Assembly (NCBI GenBank): GCA_025055265.1
Contig: JANWXL010000475.1
Coordinates: forward strand, 1 to 45,940
DNA from: Roseiflexus sp.
GTDB taxonomy: Bacteria > Chloroflexota > Chloroflexia > Chloroflexales > Roseiflexaceae
DNA: 45,940 bases
Reading direction: 5' to 3'
Numbering within the stretch: position 1 is the first letter of the stretch; every line of letters begins with the position of its first letter. This document shows, in pieces, positions 2,866 through 43,970 of this stretch. The notes beneath the pieces were generated by a model that searched no databases, was not told where the DNA came from, and worked only from the letters and a program-made list of their open reading frames with translations. Position numbers and translations under genes: made by a program.

Positions 2866-4623
2866 ATGACGCTGTTCCTGACCCGCCGAAAGCTGCTCAC
2901 CGAGCGCCAGGAGGCGCTGCTCGAGGAGATTCGCGCTGCGCTGGAGGCGCTGCGTGCAGCATTGAAACGGTTCGGCGTCGATGTGGCGCCCGCTGACGCC
3001 CGAATACTCGATGATGTGATCGCCAATCTCGACGAACTGTTCCTCCTTGTCGTCGCTGGCGAGTACAATTCAGGCAAGTCGAGTTTCATCAATGCGCTCC
3101 TGGGAGCGCCGGTGGTCGCCGAGGGGGTGACCCCGACCACCGACCGGATCACGGTTCTGCGCTACGGCGATACGCCCGGCGAAACGGTCAGCGGCGCGTT
3201 TCTGGTCGAGTATCGTTTCCCCGCCGATGTGCTGCGCCGCATGGCGATTGTGGATACGCCCGGCACAAATGCGATCATCCAGCGCCACGAAGAGTTGACG
3301 CGCAACTTCATCCCCCGCGCCGATCTGGTGCTGTTCATCACGTCCGCCAGCCAGCCGTTTTCCGCCAGTGAGCGCGCCTTTCTCGAACTCATTCGCGATT
3401 GGGGCAAAAAGGTCGTGATCGTCATCAACAAAGCCGATCTGCTCGACGACGCTGGTCTGACGGAAGTGGTCGCATTCGTTGGCAGGCATGCGGAAGACCT
3501 GTTCGGTATGCGCCCCGAAATCTTCCCTGTCTCAGCGCGGCTGGCGCGGCAGGCGCGCGATGGCGATGATCAGGCGTTGTGGGACGCCAGCCGCTTCCCG
3601 GCAATCGAACAGTATATCAGCGACACCCTCGACGAAGAGCAGCGGGTGCGTCTGAAACTCCTCTCGCCGCTCGGCGTGGCGCGTCGGCTGGCGGAACGCT
3701 ACCTGGTCGCCGTTGAGGATCGGTTGCTGTCGCTGCGCGACGATGTCGGCGCTATCGAGAACATCGAGCGACAACTTGAGCAATTCCGCAGCGATCTTGC
3801 CGACGATTTTCAGCGTCATCGCGCCGATGTCGCCAATATTCTCAATGAATTCGAACTGCGCGGCATGCATTTCTTCGACGATACCATCCGCGTCAGCAAT
3901 CTGTTCAACCTGGTGCGTCGCCAGCAGGAGATCAGCGAGGCGTTCGCGCACGAGGTGGTCGCCGATGTGCCGCAGCAGATCGAAGCGCGCCTGCAGGCGT
4001 TGGTCGACTGGATGGTGGAGAAGAACCTGCGCATGTGGCAGGGAGTTATGGACTATCTGCGCCGCGAACGGGCGGTGCAGCAGCGGAGCGGACTGATCGG
4101 CGAGATCGGCGGGACCTTCGAGTACAACCGGAATGCGTTGATCGAGTCAGTGGCCCGTGAGGCGGAAAAGGTCGTTGCGACCTATGATCGTGAGGCGGAA
4201 GCGCAGGCGCTGACCGAGGAGGTGCGTTCAGCGATTGCCAGTTCGACGCTGGTCGGCGCGGGCGCTGTCGGGATCGGCGCGTTGCTGGTGCTGTTGCTGC
4301 ACGGCGCGCTGCTCGACGTGACCGGCGTCCTGGTCGCCGGGGCGCTGGCGATCGGCGGGTTGTACATCATCCCGAATAAGCGGCGCCAGATCAAACGCCA
4401 GTTCCATCAGCGCGTCGCCGATCTGCGTGAGACGCTCGCTGACACGATGGAGCGCCAGTTCAACGCTGAACTTGACCGCATGATCACCCGCATCCGCGAC
4501 GCCATCGACCCCTACACTCGCTTCGTCTACACCCAGCACGACCATCTGCTGACGACCCAGCGCGAACTGTCGGATGCCGAAGCGGAGATTGGTCGATTGC
4601 AGGCGGAAGTGGAACGCTCTTGA
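2866..4623 (+). CDS. Dynamin-family GTPase with C-terminal membrane hairpin
   Basis: GEYNSGKSSFINALLG P-loop, TPTTDRIT, DTPGTN, NKADLL; hydrophobic LVGAGAVGIGALLVLLLHGALLDVTGVLVAGALAIGGLYI. Confidence 0.88.
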   Translation: MTLFLTRRKLLTERQEALLEEIRAALEALRAALKRFGVDVAPADARILDDVIANLDELFLLVVAGEYNSGKSSFINALLGAPVVAEGVTPTTDRITVLRYGDTPGETVSGAFLVEYRFPADVLRRMAIVDTPGTNAIIQRHEELTRNFIPRADLVLFITSASQPFSASERAFLELIRDWGKKVVIVINKADLLDDAGLTEVVAFVGRHAEDLFGMRPEIFPVSARLARQARDGDDQALWDASRFPAIEQYISDTLDEEQRVRLKLLSPLGVARRLAERYLVAVEDRLLSLRDDVGAIENIERQLEQFRSDLADDFQRHRADVANILNEFELRGMHFFDDTIRVSNLFNLVRRQQEISEAFAHEVVADVPQQIEARLQALVDWMVEKNLRMWQGVMDYLRRERAVQQRSGLIGEIGGTFEYNRNALIESVAREAEKVVATYDREAEAQALTEEVRSAIASSTLVGAGAVGIGALLVLLLHGALLDVTGVLVAGALAIGGLYIIPNKRRQIKRQFHQRVADLRETLADTMERQFNAELDRMITRIRDAIDPYTRFVYTQHDHLLTTQRELSDAEAEIGRLQAEVERS

Positions 4624-4634
4624 CGAGGTGGCGT

Positions 4635-5465
4635 ATGCAACCATCAGGGATTATCACGCTCACAACCGATTTCGGGCTGGCGGATAGTTACGTCGGCATC
4701 ATGAAGGGGGTCATTCTCGGGATCGCGCCCAGAGCAACCATTGTGGATATCACGCACCAGATTGCGCCGCAGGATATCCACCAGGCAGCCTACATCGTCC
4801 AGACCTTCGGCGCTTTTTTTCCGCCGGGAACGGTGCACGTCGTGGTGGTCGATCCAGGCGTGGGCAGCAAGCGGCGCCGGATCATCCTGACCACCCCGGT
4901 TGCTGCATATGTCGCCCCGGATAACGGCGTGCTGACATATGTGTGGCGCGAAGCGATCGCGCAGTGGGGCGCGGAAAAGTGCGCGGTCTACAACCTGACC
5001 GAGTCGCGCTACTGGTTGCCGCATGTCAGCAGCACCTTCCACGGGCGCGATGTGTTTGCGCCGGTGGCGGCGCACCTGACCCTCGGCGTTCCGCCAGCAG
5101 AGTTTGGCGAGCGGTGCGAAGAGATCGTCGAAGCCATGCTTGAGCAACCGTCGCGCGGACGGCACGGCGAACTTGTCGGACGCATCATCCATATCGACCA
5201 TTTCGGCAACTGCATCACGAACATCACGCTGAAGCACCTGAAGGAGGCGGGGATCGGCGAGCGCATGGTTGCCCAATTGATCGGACAACGGATCGAGGGT
5301 CTGTATCGGACGTACTCCGACGTGCCGATTGGCGCGCTGGTTGCGCTGATCGGCAGCAGCGATCACCTGGAGATCGCCGTGCGCAACGGCAATGCGGCGC
5401 AAACGCTGGGCGCCGGCATTGGCGACATTGTGCGCGTGTTCCCGTTTACGCACGATGCATCGTAA
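4635..5465 (+). CDS. SAM hydroxide adenosyltransferase (DUF62 family)
   Basis: GIITLTTDFGLADSYVGIMKGVI...DPGVGSKRR...PDNGVLT...HGRDVFAPVAAHL...HIDHFGNCITNI. Confidence 0.9.
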   Translation: MQPSGIITLTTDFGLADSYVGIMKGVILGIAPRATIVDITHQIAPQDIHQAAYIVQTFGAFFPPGTVHVVVVDPGVGSKRRRIILTTPVAAYVAPDNGVLTYVWREAIAQWGAEKCAVYNLTESRYWLPHVSSTFHGRDVFAPVAAHLTLGVPPAEFGERCEEIVEAMLEQPSRGRHGELVGRIIHIDHFGNCITNITLKHLKEAGIGERMVAQLIGQRIEGLYRTYSDVPIGALVALIGSSDHLEIAVRNGNAAQTLGAGIGDIVRVFPFTHDAS

Positions 5466-5515
5466 CGCTGGCGAAAATTTGTTTTGCAAAATCCTGAATT
5501 TCGTGTAATACTCCC

Positions 5516-5544
5516 TTGACGCTCGATACGCGGGTTGCTATAAT
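5516..5544 (+). promoter_or_regulatory. Sigma70-type promoter TTGACG-17-TATAAT for the prkA operon
   Basis: TTGACG at 5516-5521, 17-nt spacer, TATAAT at 5539-5544. Confidence 0.75.
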
Positions 5545-5810
5545 AAACAACACCTGGAATACCAGGACCTCCTACCCGCCCCCTGAGATGTCTAGCTGTA
5601 TCGGTGCAGCGACCAGCGGGTGTTGTATATCTGCGGTTAGCCGCATCTCTTCGTTGGGGCAGTGCACCATCTACAGTTGGAGTCAATGCACGTTATCAGG
5701 ACCACAGATACCCGACCGGCGGCAATGGCACAGGCTGTTGCGATCGGTCCATTTTGCCGCAGGCATTCGCATAGCGCGCGAATGGCGGCAACAAACCAGG
5801 AGGACAATTC

Positions 5811-7889
<2,079 letters not shown>

Positions 7890-35526: not shown

Positions 35527-36558
35527 CTACGACGGACGCACCGCGTACTGTTCCATCAACTCAATCGACTCCGGCGCGCGCCAGCAGGCGACAAAATGCC
35601 CATCGCCGTAGTCCTTGAACGGCGGCTCTTCGACTTTGCAGCGGTCAATGGCAATCGGGCAGCGGGTATGGAAGTGACATCCCGGCGGCGGATTGAGCGG
35701 ACTCGGCACGTCGCCTTCCAGAATGATGCGCTGCCGCTTCCGCTCAACGGTCGGGTCGGGAATGGGAGCGGCTGATAGCAGCGCCTGGGTGTAGGGGTGC
35801 ATCGGCATGGCGTAAAGTTTCTTCCCCTCCGCCAGTTCCACCACCTTCCCCAGATACATCACCGCCACCCGGTCGCTGATATGCTTCACGACAGCCAGAC
35901 CGTGCGCGATGAACAGGTAGGTCAGCCCCAGGCGCTGCTGAAGGTCTTCGAGCAGGTTGAGCACCTGCGCCTGGATCGATACGTCGAGCGCCGACACTGG
36001 CTCGTCGCAGACCACAAACTCGGGTTCAACCGCCAGCGCGCGCGCAATGCCGATGCGCTGCCGCTGCCCGCCGGAGAACTCGTGAGGGTAGCGGTTGATG
36101 AAATACGGGTTGAGGCCGACGAGTTCGAGCAGTTCCTGTACGCGCTCGCGGATGGCAGCCTTCCCCTGACGCAGATTGTGCACCGCGATCGGCTCGCCGA
36201 TGATGTCGCCGACCGTCATGCGCGGGTTGAGCGACGCATACGGGTCCTGGAAGATCATCTGCACTTTGCGCCGCATGCGCCGCAACTCTTCGCCCTTCAG
36301 TCGGGTGAGATCGACTCCCTGGAACAGCACTTCGCCAGCGGTTGGCTTGTATAGTTGCAAAATGGCGCGCCCGGTGGTGGATTTGCCGCAGCCGCTCTCG
36401 CCGACAAGCCCCAGGGTCTCGCCGCGCCTGATCGAGAATGTCACTCCATCGACGGCTTTGATATACCCGACGGTGCGCTTGATAATTGTACCCTTCATCA
36501 CCGGGAAATGCATCTTCAGGTTGCGCACCTGGATGAGATCAGTCGAAGCATCGCTCAT
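35527..36558 (-). CDS. Oligopeptide ABC transporter ATPase (OppF-type, copy 2)
   Basis: [61 protein letters not shown]. Confidence 0.93.
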
Positions 36559-36585
36559 CGCACTCGTCCCTCATTCGCTGTACAG

Positions 36586-37611
36586 TTACGCTGGCACTTC
36601 GCCGCCGGTGGTGGGAAGCGGCGTTTCGAGGGTGATGTCGAACAGGCAGGCGGCCTTGTGACCGGGAACCACCTCGCGCAGCGGCGGAACCTGCTGGTCG
36701 CACTTGCCGGGGATGAAATAGTCACAGCGCGGGCTGAACGGGCAGATCTGCGGCAGGTTGATCAGGTCCGGCGGCAGACCGCGAATTGGCGTCAGCTTAC
36801 GTCCCTCTTCCTCATCGAGGCGCGGGATCGAGCGCAGCAGCCCGATGGTGTACGGCATCCGCGGACGAGCGAAGATCTCTTCGGTGGGACCCTCTTCCAC
36901 AATCCGCCCGGCATACATAACGATCACCCGGTCCGCCATGCCAGCGACCACTCCAAGGTCGTGGGTGATGATAATCACCGCCGTGCCGAGTTCGTGCTGC
37001 AGCCGCTGAATGAGTTCGAGGATCTGCGCCTGAATTGTCACGTCGAGCGCGGTCGTCGGCTCATCGGCGATCAGGAGTTCCGGGTTGCACGACAGCGCCA
37101 TCGCAATCATCACCCGCTGCCGCATGCCGCCGGAGAACTGGTGCGGATAATCATCCAGGCGGCGCGCGGCGCTGGGGATGCCGACCATCTGCAACAGTTC
37201 GATGGCTCGCTTGCGCGCCTCTCTGGGGGTCAGTTTCATGTGGAGTTCGAGCGACTCGGTGATCTGCCGTCCAATCGTCAACACCGGATTGAGCGAGGTC
37301 ATCGGGTCCTGGAAGATCATCGCAATCCGGTTGCCGCGAATGTGGCGCATCTCCTCTTCGGTATAATCGAGCAGGTTCTCTCCATCGAAGATAATCTGCC
37401 CGCCGACGATCTTCCCCGGCGGATTGGGAATGAGGCGCATGATCGACAGCGAGGTGACGCTCTTTCCCGAACCGCTCTCGCCGACGATACCGAGAGTCTC
37501 GCCGCGATCCACGTGGAAAGAGACGTTGTTGACGGCTTTGACGACGCCATCCTGGGTTTTGAACTGAGTCTCAAGGTTCTTGACGACGAGCAGCGGTTGT
37601 GTCATCGGCAC
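36586..37611 (-). CDS. Oligopeptide ABC transporter ATPase (OppD-type, copy 2)
   Basis: [54 protein letters not shown]. Confidence 0.93.
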
Positions 37612-37617
37612 TCTCCA

Positions 37618-38625
37618 TCAGGGTGAAACTTCATGGGCGAAATGGCAGGCCGACCAGTGGCCAGACGTTTTTTCCTCAAATGCCGGTTCGATCTCGCGGC
37701 AAATGTCGCGCGCCATCCAGCAGCGTGGATGGAAGCGACACCCCTTCGGCGGGTTGATCGGGCTGGGCACATCCCCCTGCAGAATGATCCGTTCGCGCCG
37801 GATGTTGGGGTTGGGGATTGGAATAGCGGAAATCAACGCTTTGGTGTACGGATGGAGCGGACGGCGGAAGAGTTCGGTGCGGTCCGCCAGTTCGACCATC
37901 TTCCCCAGGTACATCACGCCGACGCGGTTGCTGATATGTTCGACAACGCTGAGGTTATGCGCGATGAACAGGTAGGTCAGCCCGAATTCCTGCTGCAGGT
38001 TGCGCAGCAGGTTGAGCACCTGCGACTGAATCGACACATCGAGCGCCGACACCGGCTCGTCGCACACGATCAATTTGGGGTTCATCACCAGCGCGCGTGC
38101 GATGCCGATGCGCTGCCGCTGACCGCCGGAGAATTCGTGCGGGAAGCGTTCCATGTGGCTGGGATGCATGCCGACCTTCGCCAGCACTTCGCGCACCCGC
38201 TCGATGCGCTCGGCTTTGCTGCCGATGCCGTGAATGGTCAAACCTTCCGCCACGCTCTCGCCGATTGTCATACGCGGGTCGAGCGAGGCATACGGGTCCT
38301 GGAAAACAATCTGCATATCGCGGCGGAGCGCCTTCAATTGACTGCCGGAGGCGGCGAGCACATCTTTGCCATCAAAGATCACCTCGCCATCGGTCGCCTT
38401 TTCAAGGCGCAGGATCGTGCGCCCGGTCGTGGTTTTGCCACACCCGCTCTCACCGACCAGTCCGAGCGTTTCACCGCGTTTGATCGTGAAACTGACGCCG
38501 TCGACCGCTTTGACGACCGCGACAGTGCGGCGCAGAATGCCGCCTTTGATCGGAAAATGCTTGACCAGGTTATTGACTTCCAGCAGCGTATCGCTCGACA
38601 CGCTGCGCTGTGTTACTGTTGCCAT
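37618..38625 (-). CDS. Oligopeptide ABC transporter ATPase (OppF-type, copy 1)
   Basis: [52 protein letters not shown]. Confidence 0.93.
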
Positions 38626-38640
38626 AGGGTTCTGTCCATT

Positions 38641-39678
<1,038 letters not shown>

Positions 39679-39693
39679 GTTTCGTACATTCTC

Positions 39694-40698
39694 TTACAGT
39701 TTCAAGCGCGGATCGAGCGCATCGCGCAATCCATCGCCAATAAAGTTGAACGCCAGCGAACAGAGAAAGATCGGCAGCCCAGGGATGAGCGGCATCCACG
39801 GGTGATTGAACATATAACTGGTGGCAAAGCCCATCATGTTGCCCCAGGTTGGCGTCGGATCCTGCACGCCGAAGCCAAGGAAACTGATCGCCACTTCACT
39901 CACCAGCGCGCCGTTGAGACCAAGCGTGAACGCCACGATCAGCGGCGGGAAGGCGTTCGGGAAGACGTGCTTGATCAGGATCCAGGCATTCGATCCGCCG
40001 AGCGCGCGCGCCGACTCGATGTATTGCATCTCGCGCACCTGGAGCACCATGCCGCGCATGAGGCGCGCCACGCCGACCCAACCGAGCGACGCGAGCACCA
40101 GGATCAGCAGCGCCACCTGCGTCGCCTCGCGGTTGGGCACTGCCATGATCCAGGCGACCGGACCAATGATCCAGGTCGGCAGCACGATCAGGTCGGCATT
40201 CTGGATCATAATCGCGCTGAGGATCAGCAGGATCGGCAGGTCCGGGATCGTCGCCACGAACTCCATAATGCGGCTGATCGTATTATCGACCCATCCGCCG
40301 AAGAACCCCGACAGCAAACCCAGGATGGAGCCGATGATCGCCACCAGGGTTGTGACCGAAATCGCCACCATAAGCGACACGCGCGCCGCGTAGATCACGC
40401 GGGTAAAGAAATCGCGTCCCAGGTGGTCGGTGCCGAGGATGTGGAGTTGCCCGGTCACCGGATCGGCGCTCATCGGCGGCAGACGGGTGCGGTTCAGTCC
40501 AATGTCGTCGCGTGGGAAGGGCGCAATCCACGGCGCCAGGATCGACGCACCAAAAATAATGATCAGAATGGCGAGACTCGCCATTGCCAGGCGGTGACGG
40601 CGAAACCGGCGAAAGACAACCGCCCACTGCCCTTCGGAGCGTGGTTGCAATCGCTCAATAGCGCCAGGTGCCGCCGGTGTCGATGTCGTGGTAGCCAT
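39694..40698 (-). CDS. ABC transporter permease (OppC-type)
   Basis: HILGTDHLGRDFFTRVIYAARVSL, EMQYIESARALGGSNAWILIKHVFPN. Confidence 0.93.
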   Translation of the reverse strand: MATTTSTPAAPGAIERLQPRSEGQWAVVFRRFRRHRLAMASLAILIIIFGASILAPWIAPFPRDDIGLNRTRLPPMSADPVTGQLHILGTDHLGRDFFTRVIYAARVSLMVAISVTTLVAIIGSILGLLSGFFGGWVDNTISRIMEFVATIPDLPILLILSAIMIQNADLIVLPTWIIGPVAWIMAVPNREATQVALLILVLASLGWVGVARLMRGMVLQVREMQYIESARALGGSNAWILIKHVFPNAFPPLIVAFTLGLNGALVSEVAISFLGFGVQDPTPTWGNMMGFATSYMFNHPWMPLIPGLPIFLCSLAFNFIGDGLRDALDPRLKL

Positions 40699-40710: not shown

Positions 40711-41913
40711 TCACGTGAGCCGGATGCGCGGATCGACAACGGTGTACAGGATGTCGGAGATGAGATACCCGATCAGCACCAGCACCGTACTGATAAACAG
40801 GATCGCCATTGCCACCGTATAATCGCTATTGCCCAGCGCATCGACCAGCAACCGCCCCATGCCGGGCCAGTTGAACACCGATTCGGTCACTGCCGCGCCC
40901 GCCACCAGCGTCGGCAGCACGCCTGCAAGCAGGGTCACAAATGGGATCAGCGCATTACGCAGCGCGTGCTTGGTAATGACTGCGCGCTCACGCACACCCT
41001 TGGCGCGCGCCGTGCGTACATAATCTTGCCGCAGCACTTCGAGCATGCTGGAGCGAATGAAGCGGCTCCAGGAAGCGATATTGAAGAACGTCAGCACCGC
41101 GCACGGCATAATGAAGCGCAGCGTGCGATCCAGCGTCGAACCGGCCTGCACCGTGCCAATCCAGGGAATTGTATAGTCGCGAATGCCCCGCACGCCGCCT
41201 GACGGCAGATACGGCAGCCCGGCATCCTTTGCCAGGACTGAAAAGATCAGGATCGCCATCACGCCCATGAAGAGGGTCGGCAGCGACGAACCGACGAACG
41301 TAATGCCGGTCATCGCATAGTCGAAGCGCGAATACTGGCGCACCGCCGAATAGATGCCGATTGGCACGCCGATCAGGATGGCCAGCAATGTCGAGACGCC
41401 CATCAACTGGATCGTATAGGGCAGCCGGCTCATCAACAGATCGCTGATCGGGCGGTCGCGCGCGATCTGCTGCGACAGCCCGAAGTCGCCAAACAGAATG
41501 CCGCGGCTGGTGCGGCGTTCCGCCAGGTCCGCCAGCGTGACATCACGCACGCACCCTTCTTCGCGGATTTCGACCGTGCCATCAGGGTAGCGCAGGCGCA
41601 CCTGACCGGGAATGGCGCATCCGACGACAGTGTCTGGCGGGATCAGGTTGACGCCGCCGATTTGAATGGGACCGGCGGGGAAGCCCGCCAGCCAGCGGGT
41701 AAAGCGGATAGGCAAATAAAGATCAAGTTCATACCGCGCTTTCAGGCGCGCAATATCTTCTTCCGTCACCCGGCGCTGCCCAGTATTCTGCATCTGCTGC
41801 AAAAACAACAACGGTCCGCCCGGCGCAAGGTACAACAACGAGTAGCCGAGCATCGCCGAGAGGATGGTGACGATCACCATCTGAATCAGACGTCGAACGA
41901 GATATGTGGTCAT
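40711..41913 (-). CDS. ABC transporter permease (OppB-type) with enlarged first periplasmic loop
   Basis: TYLVRRLIQMVIVTILSAMLGYSLLYLAPGGP, DYVRTARAKGVRERAVITKHALRNALIP. Confidence 0.92.
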   Translation of the reverse strand: MTTYLVRRLIQMVIVTILSAMLGYSLLYLAPGGPLLFLQQMQNTGQRRVTEEDIARLKARYELDLYLPIRFTRWLAGFPAGPIQIGGVNLIPPDTVVGCAIPGQVRLRYPDGTVEIREEGCVRDVTLADLAERRTSRGILFGDFGLSQQIARDRPISDLLMSRLPYTIQLMGVSTLLAILIGVPIGIYSAVRQYSRFDYAMTGITFVGSSLPTLFMGVMAILIFSVLAKDAGLPYLPSGGVRGIRDYTIPWIGTVQAGSTLDRTLRFIMPCAVLTFFNIASWSRFIRSSMLEVLRQDYVRTARAKGVRERAVITKHALRNALIPFVTLLAGVLPTLVAGAAVTESVFNWPGMGRLLVDALGNSDYTVAMAILFISTVLVLIGYLISDILYTVVDPRIRLT

Positions 41914-42011: not shown

Positions 42012-43970
42012 TCACCGGATGAACAGGTTCATATCCATGTGCTCCCAGGTCGGGCTGGCATCGGTCTTGACGTTGATCTTGCCCTCCTGCGCCGCCTTGA
42101 TCACCGTCTCTACCTCTGGACCGGCGCCGAGCGTCGCCTTCTCCAGGATGTCGACTTCGCCAGTCAGCAGCGCCGCCACGGCGGCGTTGGTGTCAGCGAA
42201 GAACTGGATGACGACATTCTTGACCTTCGGCGCGCCGAGGACGAAGTTCGGGTTCGCCTCGAACCGCATGAACTCCTTCTTCTTCCACTCCTTCAGGATG
42301 TAGGGACCGTATCCCAACGGCAGTTCAGCGATCTCCGGCAGCGTCGACCACTCCTTGGCTGGCACGTCCGCCAGTTTCCGCCCATCCGACAGCGTGCGGT
42401 GCGAGGGGTAACCGCCGTAGGGAGCGGTGAAGTAGATCGGCCACTGCACGCCGGGCAGGAACTTGATCGTGTAGCTAGTGTCGCTGTTGAAGGTCACGCC
42501 GTTGAGATTATCGTGCGACTCGCAGAAGGTGAAGCTAGTCGCACCCGACTCACGATCACAGTTGATCTTCACTGCCAATTCCAGGTCGGCCTTCTTCAGC
42601 GGCTCGCCGTCCGACCACTTGATGCCCTTGATCAGGTCATAGGTGACGGTGAGCTGCTTCATCTTCACCGTGCCGCTCTCATACTTGATCGTTTCGCCGT
42701 CGGCGTTGACAATTTCAACACCTGGCTTGAGTTCGACCGCGGCGCCGGTGGCATCCCAGACCTTATCGCCCGCCTTAACCTCGACGACCTCATTCTTCGC
42801 CTTGCCGCTCTCGATTGTCGAGAGACCGTCCTGCAGCACCGGCTGGAAGTCGTAGCTGTACTGCGTGGACAACACGCCGAAAACAAGCTGCGCCGCCTGC
42901 ACCTGCACCGCTGCGCTCTCGACCAGCGAGAACATCGAGGCTGGCTCCTGGGTGAAGCCCAGGATGATGGTATCGCCGTTGTCGGTGCGTCCCCACTCAT
43001 AGGCGTTAGCAGTGATGTATTCGGTCGGGTCGGGCTTCAGGCCGGTCAGCGCTTTGTTCCAGGCATACGCCTCCAGACGCTGGAACAGCGGCAGGCTCAC
43101 CATGTCCTTGGTGAACTCGACCTGGAACGCTTTGTACTGCTTGATGCGCTCCTCGCGGTTCAACGTATTGTTGGCCGCTTTGATCGCTTTGCTGGCAGTC
43201 TCATTGCACCAGCCCATGTAGTTCTGGCCCTCCCAGTTGTTGTCCGGCAGCGGAATCTGGTCGCAGGCATAGAGAGTATAGCCGCCCGGATCCGCCTCGC
43301 CGACCCACGCGAACGCGCCAAGCTCGAAGTCGCGCCGGCGCAGACCAGAGGCGCCGCCGAACCACCAGGATGCCGGAGCGTGCTTGCGGATGATCTGGAT
43401 GCCGCAGTTATCGAGCAACTGCTTCTCCAGCACCGTCGCCCAGGTGATGCGGAACTGCGCGTTGGTCGTCGTGAATTCGAGTGACAGCGGTACGCCATCC
43501 TTCGTGCGAACGCGCTGACCTTCCGCCAGTTTCCAGCCCGCCTCATCGAGCAGCGCCTTCCCCTTCTCCGGGTTGAACGGATAGGTCACAATGCCGTCCG
43601 CCTCGCTGGCTGCCGCCCAGTGCGTCTTCGGCAGGTTGGTGTCCATCAGCAGCGCCTGCTGCTGTTCCGGCGTCAGGTAGCTATAGACCGACTGGATCAG
43701 TTCCGGCCGGTTGGTGCAGTAGGCAATCGCCTGACGCACACGTACATCGCTGAGGATCGGATGCGGCGTCCTGAACGCGCCGGTTGGCGCCGCCGTTGGA
43801 GCTTCGGCCACAACCGTCTCGCGGACCACCACCGTCTCACGAACCGGTGGCGCGGTAACGACCACCGTCTCGCGGACCGGCGCCTGTGCAGCGCCAGCAC
43901 AGGCCGAAAGAATCGGCACAACGAGCGCGAGCAGCATCGCAAGCGCGATTTTCTTGTCGAGAATCTTCAT
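42012..43970 (-). CDS. Family 5 extracellular solute-binding lipoprotein, apparently circularly permuted
   Basis: Lipobox LSAC; DVRVRQAIAYCTNRPELI and PFNPEKGKALLDEAGW occur before GDTIILGFTQEPASMF, KWSDGEPLKKADLELAVK and LGYGPYILKEW. Confidence 0.9.
   Translation of the reverse strand: MKILDKKIALAMLLALVVPILSACAGAAQAPVRETVVVTAPPVRETVVVRETVVAEAPTAAPTGAFRTPHPILSDVRVRQAIAYCTNRPELIQSVYSYLTPEQQQALLMDTNLPKTHWAAASEADGIVTYPFNPEKGKALLDEAGWKLAEGQRVRTKDGVPLSLEFTTTNAQFRITWATVLEKQLLDNCGIQIIRKHAPASWWFGGASGLRRRDFELGAFAWVGEADPGGYTLYACDQIPLPDNNWEGQNYMGWCNETASKAIKAANNTLNREERIKQYKAFQVEFTKDMVSLPLFQRLEAYAWNKALTGLKPDPTEYITANAYEWGRTDNGDTIILGFTQEPASMFSLVESAAVQVQAAQLVFGVLSTQYSYDFQPVLQDGLSTIESGKAKNEVVEVKAGDKVWDATGAAVELKPGVEIVNADGETIKYESGTVKMKQLTVTYDLIKGIKWSDGEPLKKADLELAVKINCDRESGATSFTFCESHDNLNGVTFNSDTSYTIKFLPGVQWPIYFTAPYGGYPSHRTLSDGRKLADVPAKEWSTLPEIAELPLGYGPYILKEWKKKEFMRFEANPNFVLGAPKVKNVVIQFFADTNAAVAALLTGEVDILEKATLGAGPEVETVIKAAQEGKINVKTDASPTWEHMDMNLFIR

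Follow-up and report, generated by a model that had tools for sequence, protein, structure and literature searches.

The window, the whole stretch of Roseiflexus DNA that was analysed (45,940 nucleotides), carries on its minus strand a gene for a family-5 solute-binding protein (SBP) whose two halves stand in reversed order, followed by permease and ATPase genes of the Dpp/Opp type. The features of this locus are as follows.

42012–43970, minus strand: SBP_bac_5 lipoprotein in circularly permuted order, 652 aa plus stop (Pfam PF00496)
43899–43970, minus strand: predicted signal peptide with lipobox LSAC and lipidated Cys24 (aa 1–24; by inspection and regular expression)
43770–43898, minus strand: flexible linker with VRETVVV repeats (aa 25–67; pLDDT <50 for aa 1–60)
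42978–43769, minus strand: former C-terminal half, that is, the C-lobe and the original C-terminal segment, now first (aa 68–331; PF00496 profile 205–358)
42942–42995, minus strand: new junction from the old C-terminus to the old N-terminus (aa 326–343, WGRTDNGDTIILGFTQEP)
42015–42977, minus strand: former N-terminal half, now last (aa 332–652; PF00496 profile 9–207, conserved stop position)
40711–41913, minus strand: permB, DppB/OppB-type permease, 400 aa (PF00528; NCBIfam Opp2B/Opp4B below cut-off)
41509–41670, minus strand: periplasmic TM1-TM2 insertion of permB (about aa 82–135) with two conserved Cys
39694–40698, minus strand: permC, DppC/OppC-type permease, 334 aa (PF00528 and OppC_N; best NCBIfam match Opp4C, below cut-off)
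38641–39678, minus strand: atpD, DppD/OppD-type ATPase, 345 aa (PF00005 and oligo_HPY)
37618–38625, minus strand: atpF, DppF/OppF-type ATPase, 335 aa (PF00005 and oligo_HPY; NF008453 above cut-off)
36586–37611, minus strand: second DppD-type ATPase of the same operon (PF00005 and oligo_HPY)
35527–36558, minus strand: second DppF-type ATPase of the same operon (PF00005 and oligo_HPY)

Order of the two halves and the operon

A preliminary description of this DNA had proposed that the gene is one continuous open reading frame encoding a circularly permuted family-5 SBP. The frame is indeed open over all 652 aa, the strand, which had not been given, is minus, and all of the quoted motifs are present in the order described. 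The protein scores 154.4 bits against SBP_bac_5 (PF00496; cut-off 32.4) in two pieces, with profile positions 205–358 coming first (aa 65–234, 43778–43269) and positions 9–207 last (aa 432–648, 42677–42027), which is the reversed order of half matches that the description had anticipated. A linear full-length match in normal order, which it had named as evidence to the contrary, is not found with the native protein and emerges only once the halves have been put back manually in canonical order, whereupon a single stretch covers 9–358 of the 368 profile positions with 165 bits, versus 154.4 in two. NCBIfam and PDB chain comparisons give the same swap with the pieces out of order; for example, residues 161–240 of the 1xoc chain align with 530–609 of the protein and residues 275–506 with 70–315. 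The best PDB match of the reordered protein is 2d5w, in one stretch (222–566 to 209–561), and the score against the Opp4A equivalog NF045467 is 125.3 bits, below its cut-off of 650.

Both halves are thus present once, reversed, in a single open reading frame with the old termini joined; the breakpoints are complementary, and no sequence is obviously missing or duplicated at them. The chain ends with WEHMDMNLFIR and the stop codon, at the first inter-lobe crossover. The reversed halves and complementary breakpoints, together with the canonical relatives and the rotated order of predicted secondary structure discussed below, bear out the proposed permutation, and we consider it very likely that the protein arose by natural circular permutation of the substrate-binding lipoprotein of a Dpp/Opp-type importer (cluster C, family 5). 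Its best label is a circularly permuted subclass, homologous to SBP_bac_5 and not of canonical topology. Six cysteines (C85, C189, C236, C255, C471 and C483) are invariant across the alignment of permuted proteins, which suggests that up to three disulfides may form.

The two permease and two ATPase genes that follow (41913–37618) complete an importer operon, and the order permB-permC-atpD-atpF recurs downstream of the permuted gene in most of the at least 80 named loci, with permB directly after the SBP gene in 108 sampled ORFs. The second DppD/DppF-type ATPase pair (35527–37611), separated by small gaps, recurs in Roseiflexus-related loci and in some Anaerolineae. PermB itself is distinctive: in each of the 96 permeases next to permuted SBPs that could be measured, the segment from PGGP to GDFG is 93–109 aa long and has precisely two Cys, versus 41–77 aa in seven permeases beside canonical SBPs; a partial insertion, also with two Cys, is already present in one canonical-linked permease (locus L149).

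Conservation and spread among the Chloroflexota

Essentially the whole permuted protein is matched in one frame in 56 of 159 genomes of the window's class, some of them single-contig; the single-contig genomes with an intact ortholog include G066 (91% identity), G007 and G009 (68–69%) and CP059258. These contiguous whole-protein matches in many independent genomes exclude the assembly artefact against which the preliminary description had cautioned. A named scan gave at least 80 loci, and a check of half order showed all 80 of those listed to be permuted. Carriers include the genera Roseiflexus, Chloroflexus, Oscillochloris, Chloroploca and Viridilinea, as well as Anaerolineae-type bacteria (Caldilineaceae, Anaerolineales, Thermoflexales and the isolate Bellilinea caldifistulae), and the phylum sample added about a dozen genomes outside the window's class. 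After removal of duplicates, the matches listed comprise about 100 distinct permuted proteins from Chloroflexales and Anaerolineae. A plasmid search with the junction region gave no match. Coverage beyond the Chloroflexota consisted of one scan (at least 80 loci) and the plasmids, and the spread of the permuted SBP is possibly wider than the Chloroflexota sampling.

The permuted protein is under strong purifying selection, with dN/dS about 0.07 (0.029/0.402) between Roseiflexus orthologs, and its architecture varies little. The permuted chains almost always start near TTPHPILSDVRVRQA and stop 2–4 residues past WEH(I/M/V)D(M/F)NL. Counted from the conserved Trp of the former C-terminus to the QEP of the former N-terminus, the spacing is 17 or 18 residues in 112 permuted ORFs (with duplicates), which shows that the junction has been held constant. 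Of 133 permuted ORFs, again with duplicates, 123 have a lipobox-like motif by a simple regular expression; the linker from lipid anchor to fold has a median length of 45 aa in permuted versus 41 aa in canonical proteins, and throughout the family the N-halves are less conserved than the C-halves. The permuted SBP is an old, conserved, operon-linked family and no one-off, and it is not mentioned in the main text of the two Chloroflexus proteomic/transcriptomic papers that were searched. As a separate observation, the permuted gene at 4303–6343 of locus L050 (single-contig genome G006) is broken into two frames (480 and 210 aa) by a frameshift or sequencing error.

Predicted fold, hinge and function

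An AlphaFold2 model built with 46 permuted sequences has a mean pLDDT of 88 and a pTM of 0.83; values below 50 are essentially limited to the signal peptide and linker, and block means at the junction exceed 90. In a model of a canonical relative a long strand (E367–380) is followed by the RVRQA-type helix (H422–431), and in the permuted model the equivalent strand (E633–647) is C-terminal and the helix (H76–84) lies near the N-terminus, so that the secondary-structure order of one is a rotation of the other. Foldseek, a sequential aligner that is blind to permutation, aligned the permuted model with cluster C SBPs over about 230–330 columns among the listed matches, with TMt of about 0.3–0.42 (full-length targets), and solved SBPs were matched over half their length only. 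The canonical control model, although poorer (pLDDT 67.5), was matched over its whole length, about 590 columns, with TMt of about 0.6–0.8. The usual two-lobed Venus flytrap is most likely the fold that the permuted chain adopts.

The related peptide-binding protein MppA has its lobe connections at residues 286–287 and 507–508 (PMC6022919). Judged by alignment and by what is generally known of this fold, the permutation cuts at or just after what would be the first of these crossovers. A cut there would leave a single covalent inter-lobe crossover, the second, instead of two, and sequence and secondary structure point to just such a singly connected protein, in which the lipid tether would now sit on the C-lobe, at the hinge. 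The mature chain would begin at the first crossover, traverse the C-lobe as far as the old C-terminus, cross a junction of about five residues to the old N-terminus, and end at the last N-lobe strand just before the first crossover.

We infer that the protein functions in binding and transport: it would capture an extracellular solute and hand it over to permB/permC, with the DppD/F-type ATPases supplying the power. The ligand is probably a short peptide; this is guessed from those relatives whose structures are solved, the best sequence relatives, 2d5w (the Thermus thermophilus oligopeptide-binding protein) and 1xoc, being peptide binders. In E. coli DppB, the TM1-TM2 region (residues 32–62) contains the scoop motif that enters the DppA cleft (PMC12136057). 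It is conceivable, if rather doubtful, that the permutation and the two-Cys insertion of permB are co-adapted, such that a flytrap with one crossover and a C-lobe tether docks via the enlarged TM1-TM2 element near the scoop motif and couples closure to transport differently; both traits may stem from the same branch, so their association counts as one event.

Origin, alternative readings and comparison with known SBPs

Trees built separately from the N-half (100/99) and the C-half (100/100) each unite the permuted sequences in one clade, the permeases downstream of them likewise group together (100/97), and each of the three trees supports a single origin of the permutation. In the C-half tree the sister is the canonical-order protein of locus L045 in genome G042 (99/88), which is 48% identical to the window protein in this half and heads an operon with the same layout. 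The N-half tree does not resolve this relation, and an AU test does not reject it (p = 0.28). This pattern fits one permutation of one ancestral gene. Duplication is the usual model of circular permutation (PMC3320104), and for a secreted lipoprotein it requires in addition that the signal peptide and linker were retained or acquired anew. Most simply, a tandem duplication would have been fused in frame, after which copy one would have lost its N-half but kept the signal peptide and linker, and copy two would have lost its C-half. Among the fetched loci there is no intermediate of this putative route, as none of their ORFs contains the same half twice. Two candidates for traces of the duplication were rejected. 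The canonical family-5 SBP gene immediately upstream of the permuted gene in loci L113, L122, L138, L143, L144 and L145 falls, as a possible duplicate parent, deep in another canonical clade in the half trees, and a 958-aa ORF in locus L156, considered as an intermediate, is a phosphonate-binding domain (PF12974) fused to a canonical SBP.

The same trees bear on the possibility that the gene is a chimera, its C-half taken from one SBP paralog and its N-half from another by fission and fusion or by shuffling. The firm placement of the C-half beside L045 is not matched by the N-half, for which a weak neighbour, L057, fits equally well; but the AU test retains L045 as N-half sister, the breakpoints complement each other with neither overlap nor gap, and N-half divergence is higher throughout the family, so the weaker N-half signal could stem from lower conservation. 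We regard a chimera as improbable. That the gene is an assembly artefact or a decaying pseudogene might be suspected from the draft state of the window genome (604 contigs) and from the frameshifted copy in G006; the probability of this is negligible given the intact orthologs in many genomes, the four single-contig ones named above included, and the low dN/dS.

Other alternatives accept the permutation and question what the protein does with it. Because only one covalent crossover would join the lobes, and because lobes of periplasmic binding proteins can fold alone and swap segments (PMC9815098), the protein might be a domain-swapped dimer, or a pair of separately tethered lobes, instead of a monomeric flytrap. 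The monomer model, confident in both halves, speaks against this, as does TpMglB-2 (Tp0684) of Treponema pallidum, a permuted monomer that changes conformation normally upon ligand binding (PMC4990184), and such an arrangement appears very unlikely. Reuse of the fold in a sensor or scaffold, in place of an importer subunit, would suit the divergent paralogs at L133, L047 and L156, near which there are no permease genes; the main family, with permB directly downstream in the 108 sampled ORFs and permeases that form one clade, makes such a role very unlikely indeed.

We return to the permuted importer SBP and its place among known proteins. It has in common with the canonical cluster C SBPs (DppA, OppA, AppA and NikA) its homologous halves, its lipoprotein or secreted nature and its position as the first gene of an operon with two permeases and two ATPases, and it differs from them in the reversed order, the new termini at the first crossover and the putative C-lobe tether. 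Closer at hand, canonical relatives in the Chloroflexota (L045 in G042, L052, and L055/L056) have the normal order and a permB that lacks the large TM1-TM2 insertion, and L045, L055 and L056 have the same operon layout as the permuted SBP. TpMglB-2, a naturally circularly permuted type Ic/cluster Bc glucose-binding protein (PMC4990184), is likewise a natural permutant of a tethered SBP, but it has the type I sugar-binding fold and gains a fourth inter-lobe crossover, whereas the protein described here belongs to cluster C and would lose one. The matches of the latter are cluster C SBPs and not the type I (cluster B) fold, and the two permutations are independent events in different fold types. 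In the literature searched, no natural permuted SBP other than TpMglB-2 was recognised; no report of a natural permutant of the DppA/OppA family was found in the open-access part of it, so an earlier mention elsewhere is possible.

The permuted SBP is a phylum-scale natural circular permutant within one of the largest transport protein families, and allows the tolerance of Venus flytrap proteins to hinge rewiring to be tested in a natural case. Because permuted and unpermuted relatives share an operon layout, what the hinge crossovers and the position of the tether contribute can be tested on naturally occurring proteins. Only halves of the protein are detected by automatic annotation and by sequential structure search, so similar permutants may have been missed.

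Several divergent loci were also noted. Permuted paralogs of 822–861 aa are encoded at 7755–10220 of L133 (Chloroflexus islandicus) and in L046 and L051; at the C-terminus they carry an additional domain (about 157 aa, no Pfam match) that ends in a YLPIINR-like sequence. In L049 (4431–5675; genome G066, of the same genus) a 415-aa ORF comprises the C-half and a similar extra C-terminal domain, and the N-half is missing. At 4412–9477 of L156 a divergent permuted SBP adjoins the 958-aa fusion of PF12974 with a canonical-order SBP_bac_5 domain. Finally, the canonical SBP gene immediately upstream of the permuted one in the six loci listed above indicates that one importer operon may use two SBP topologies.
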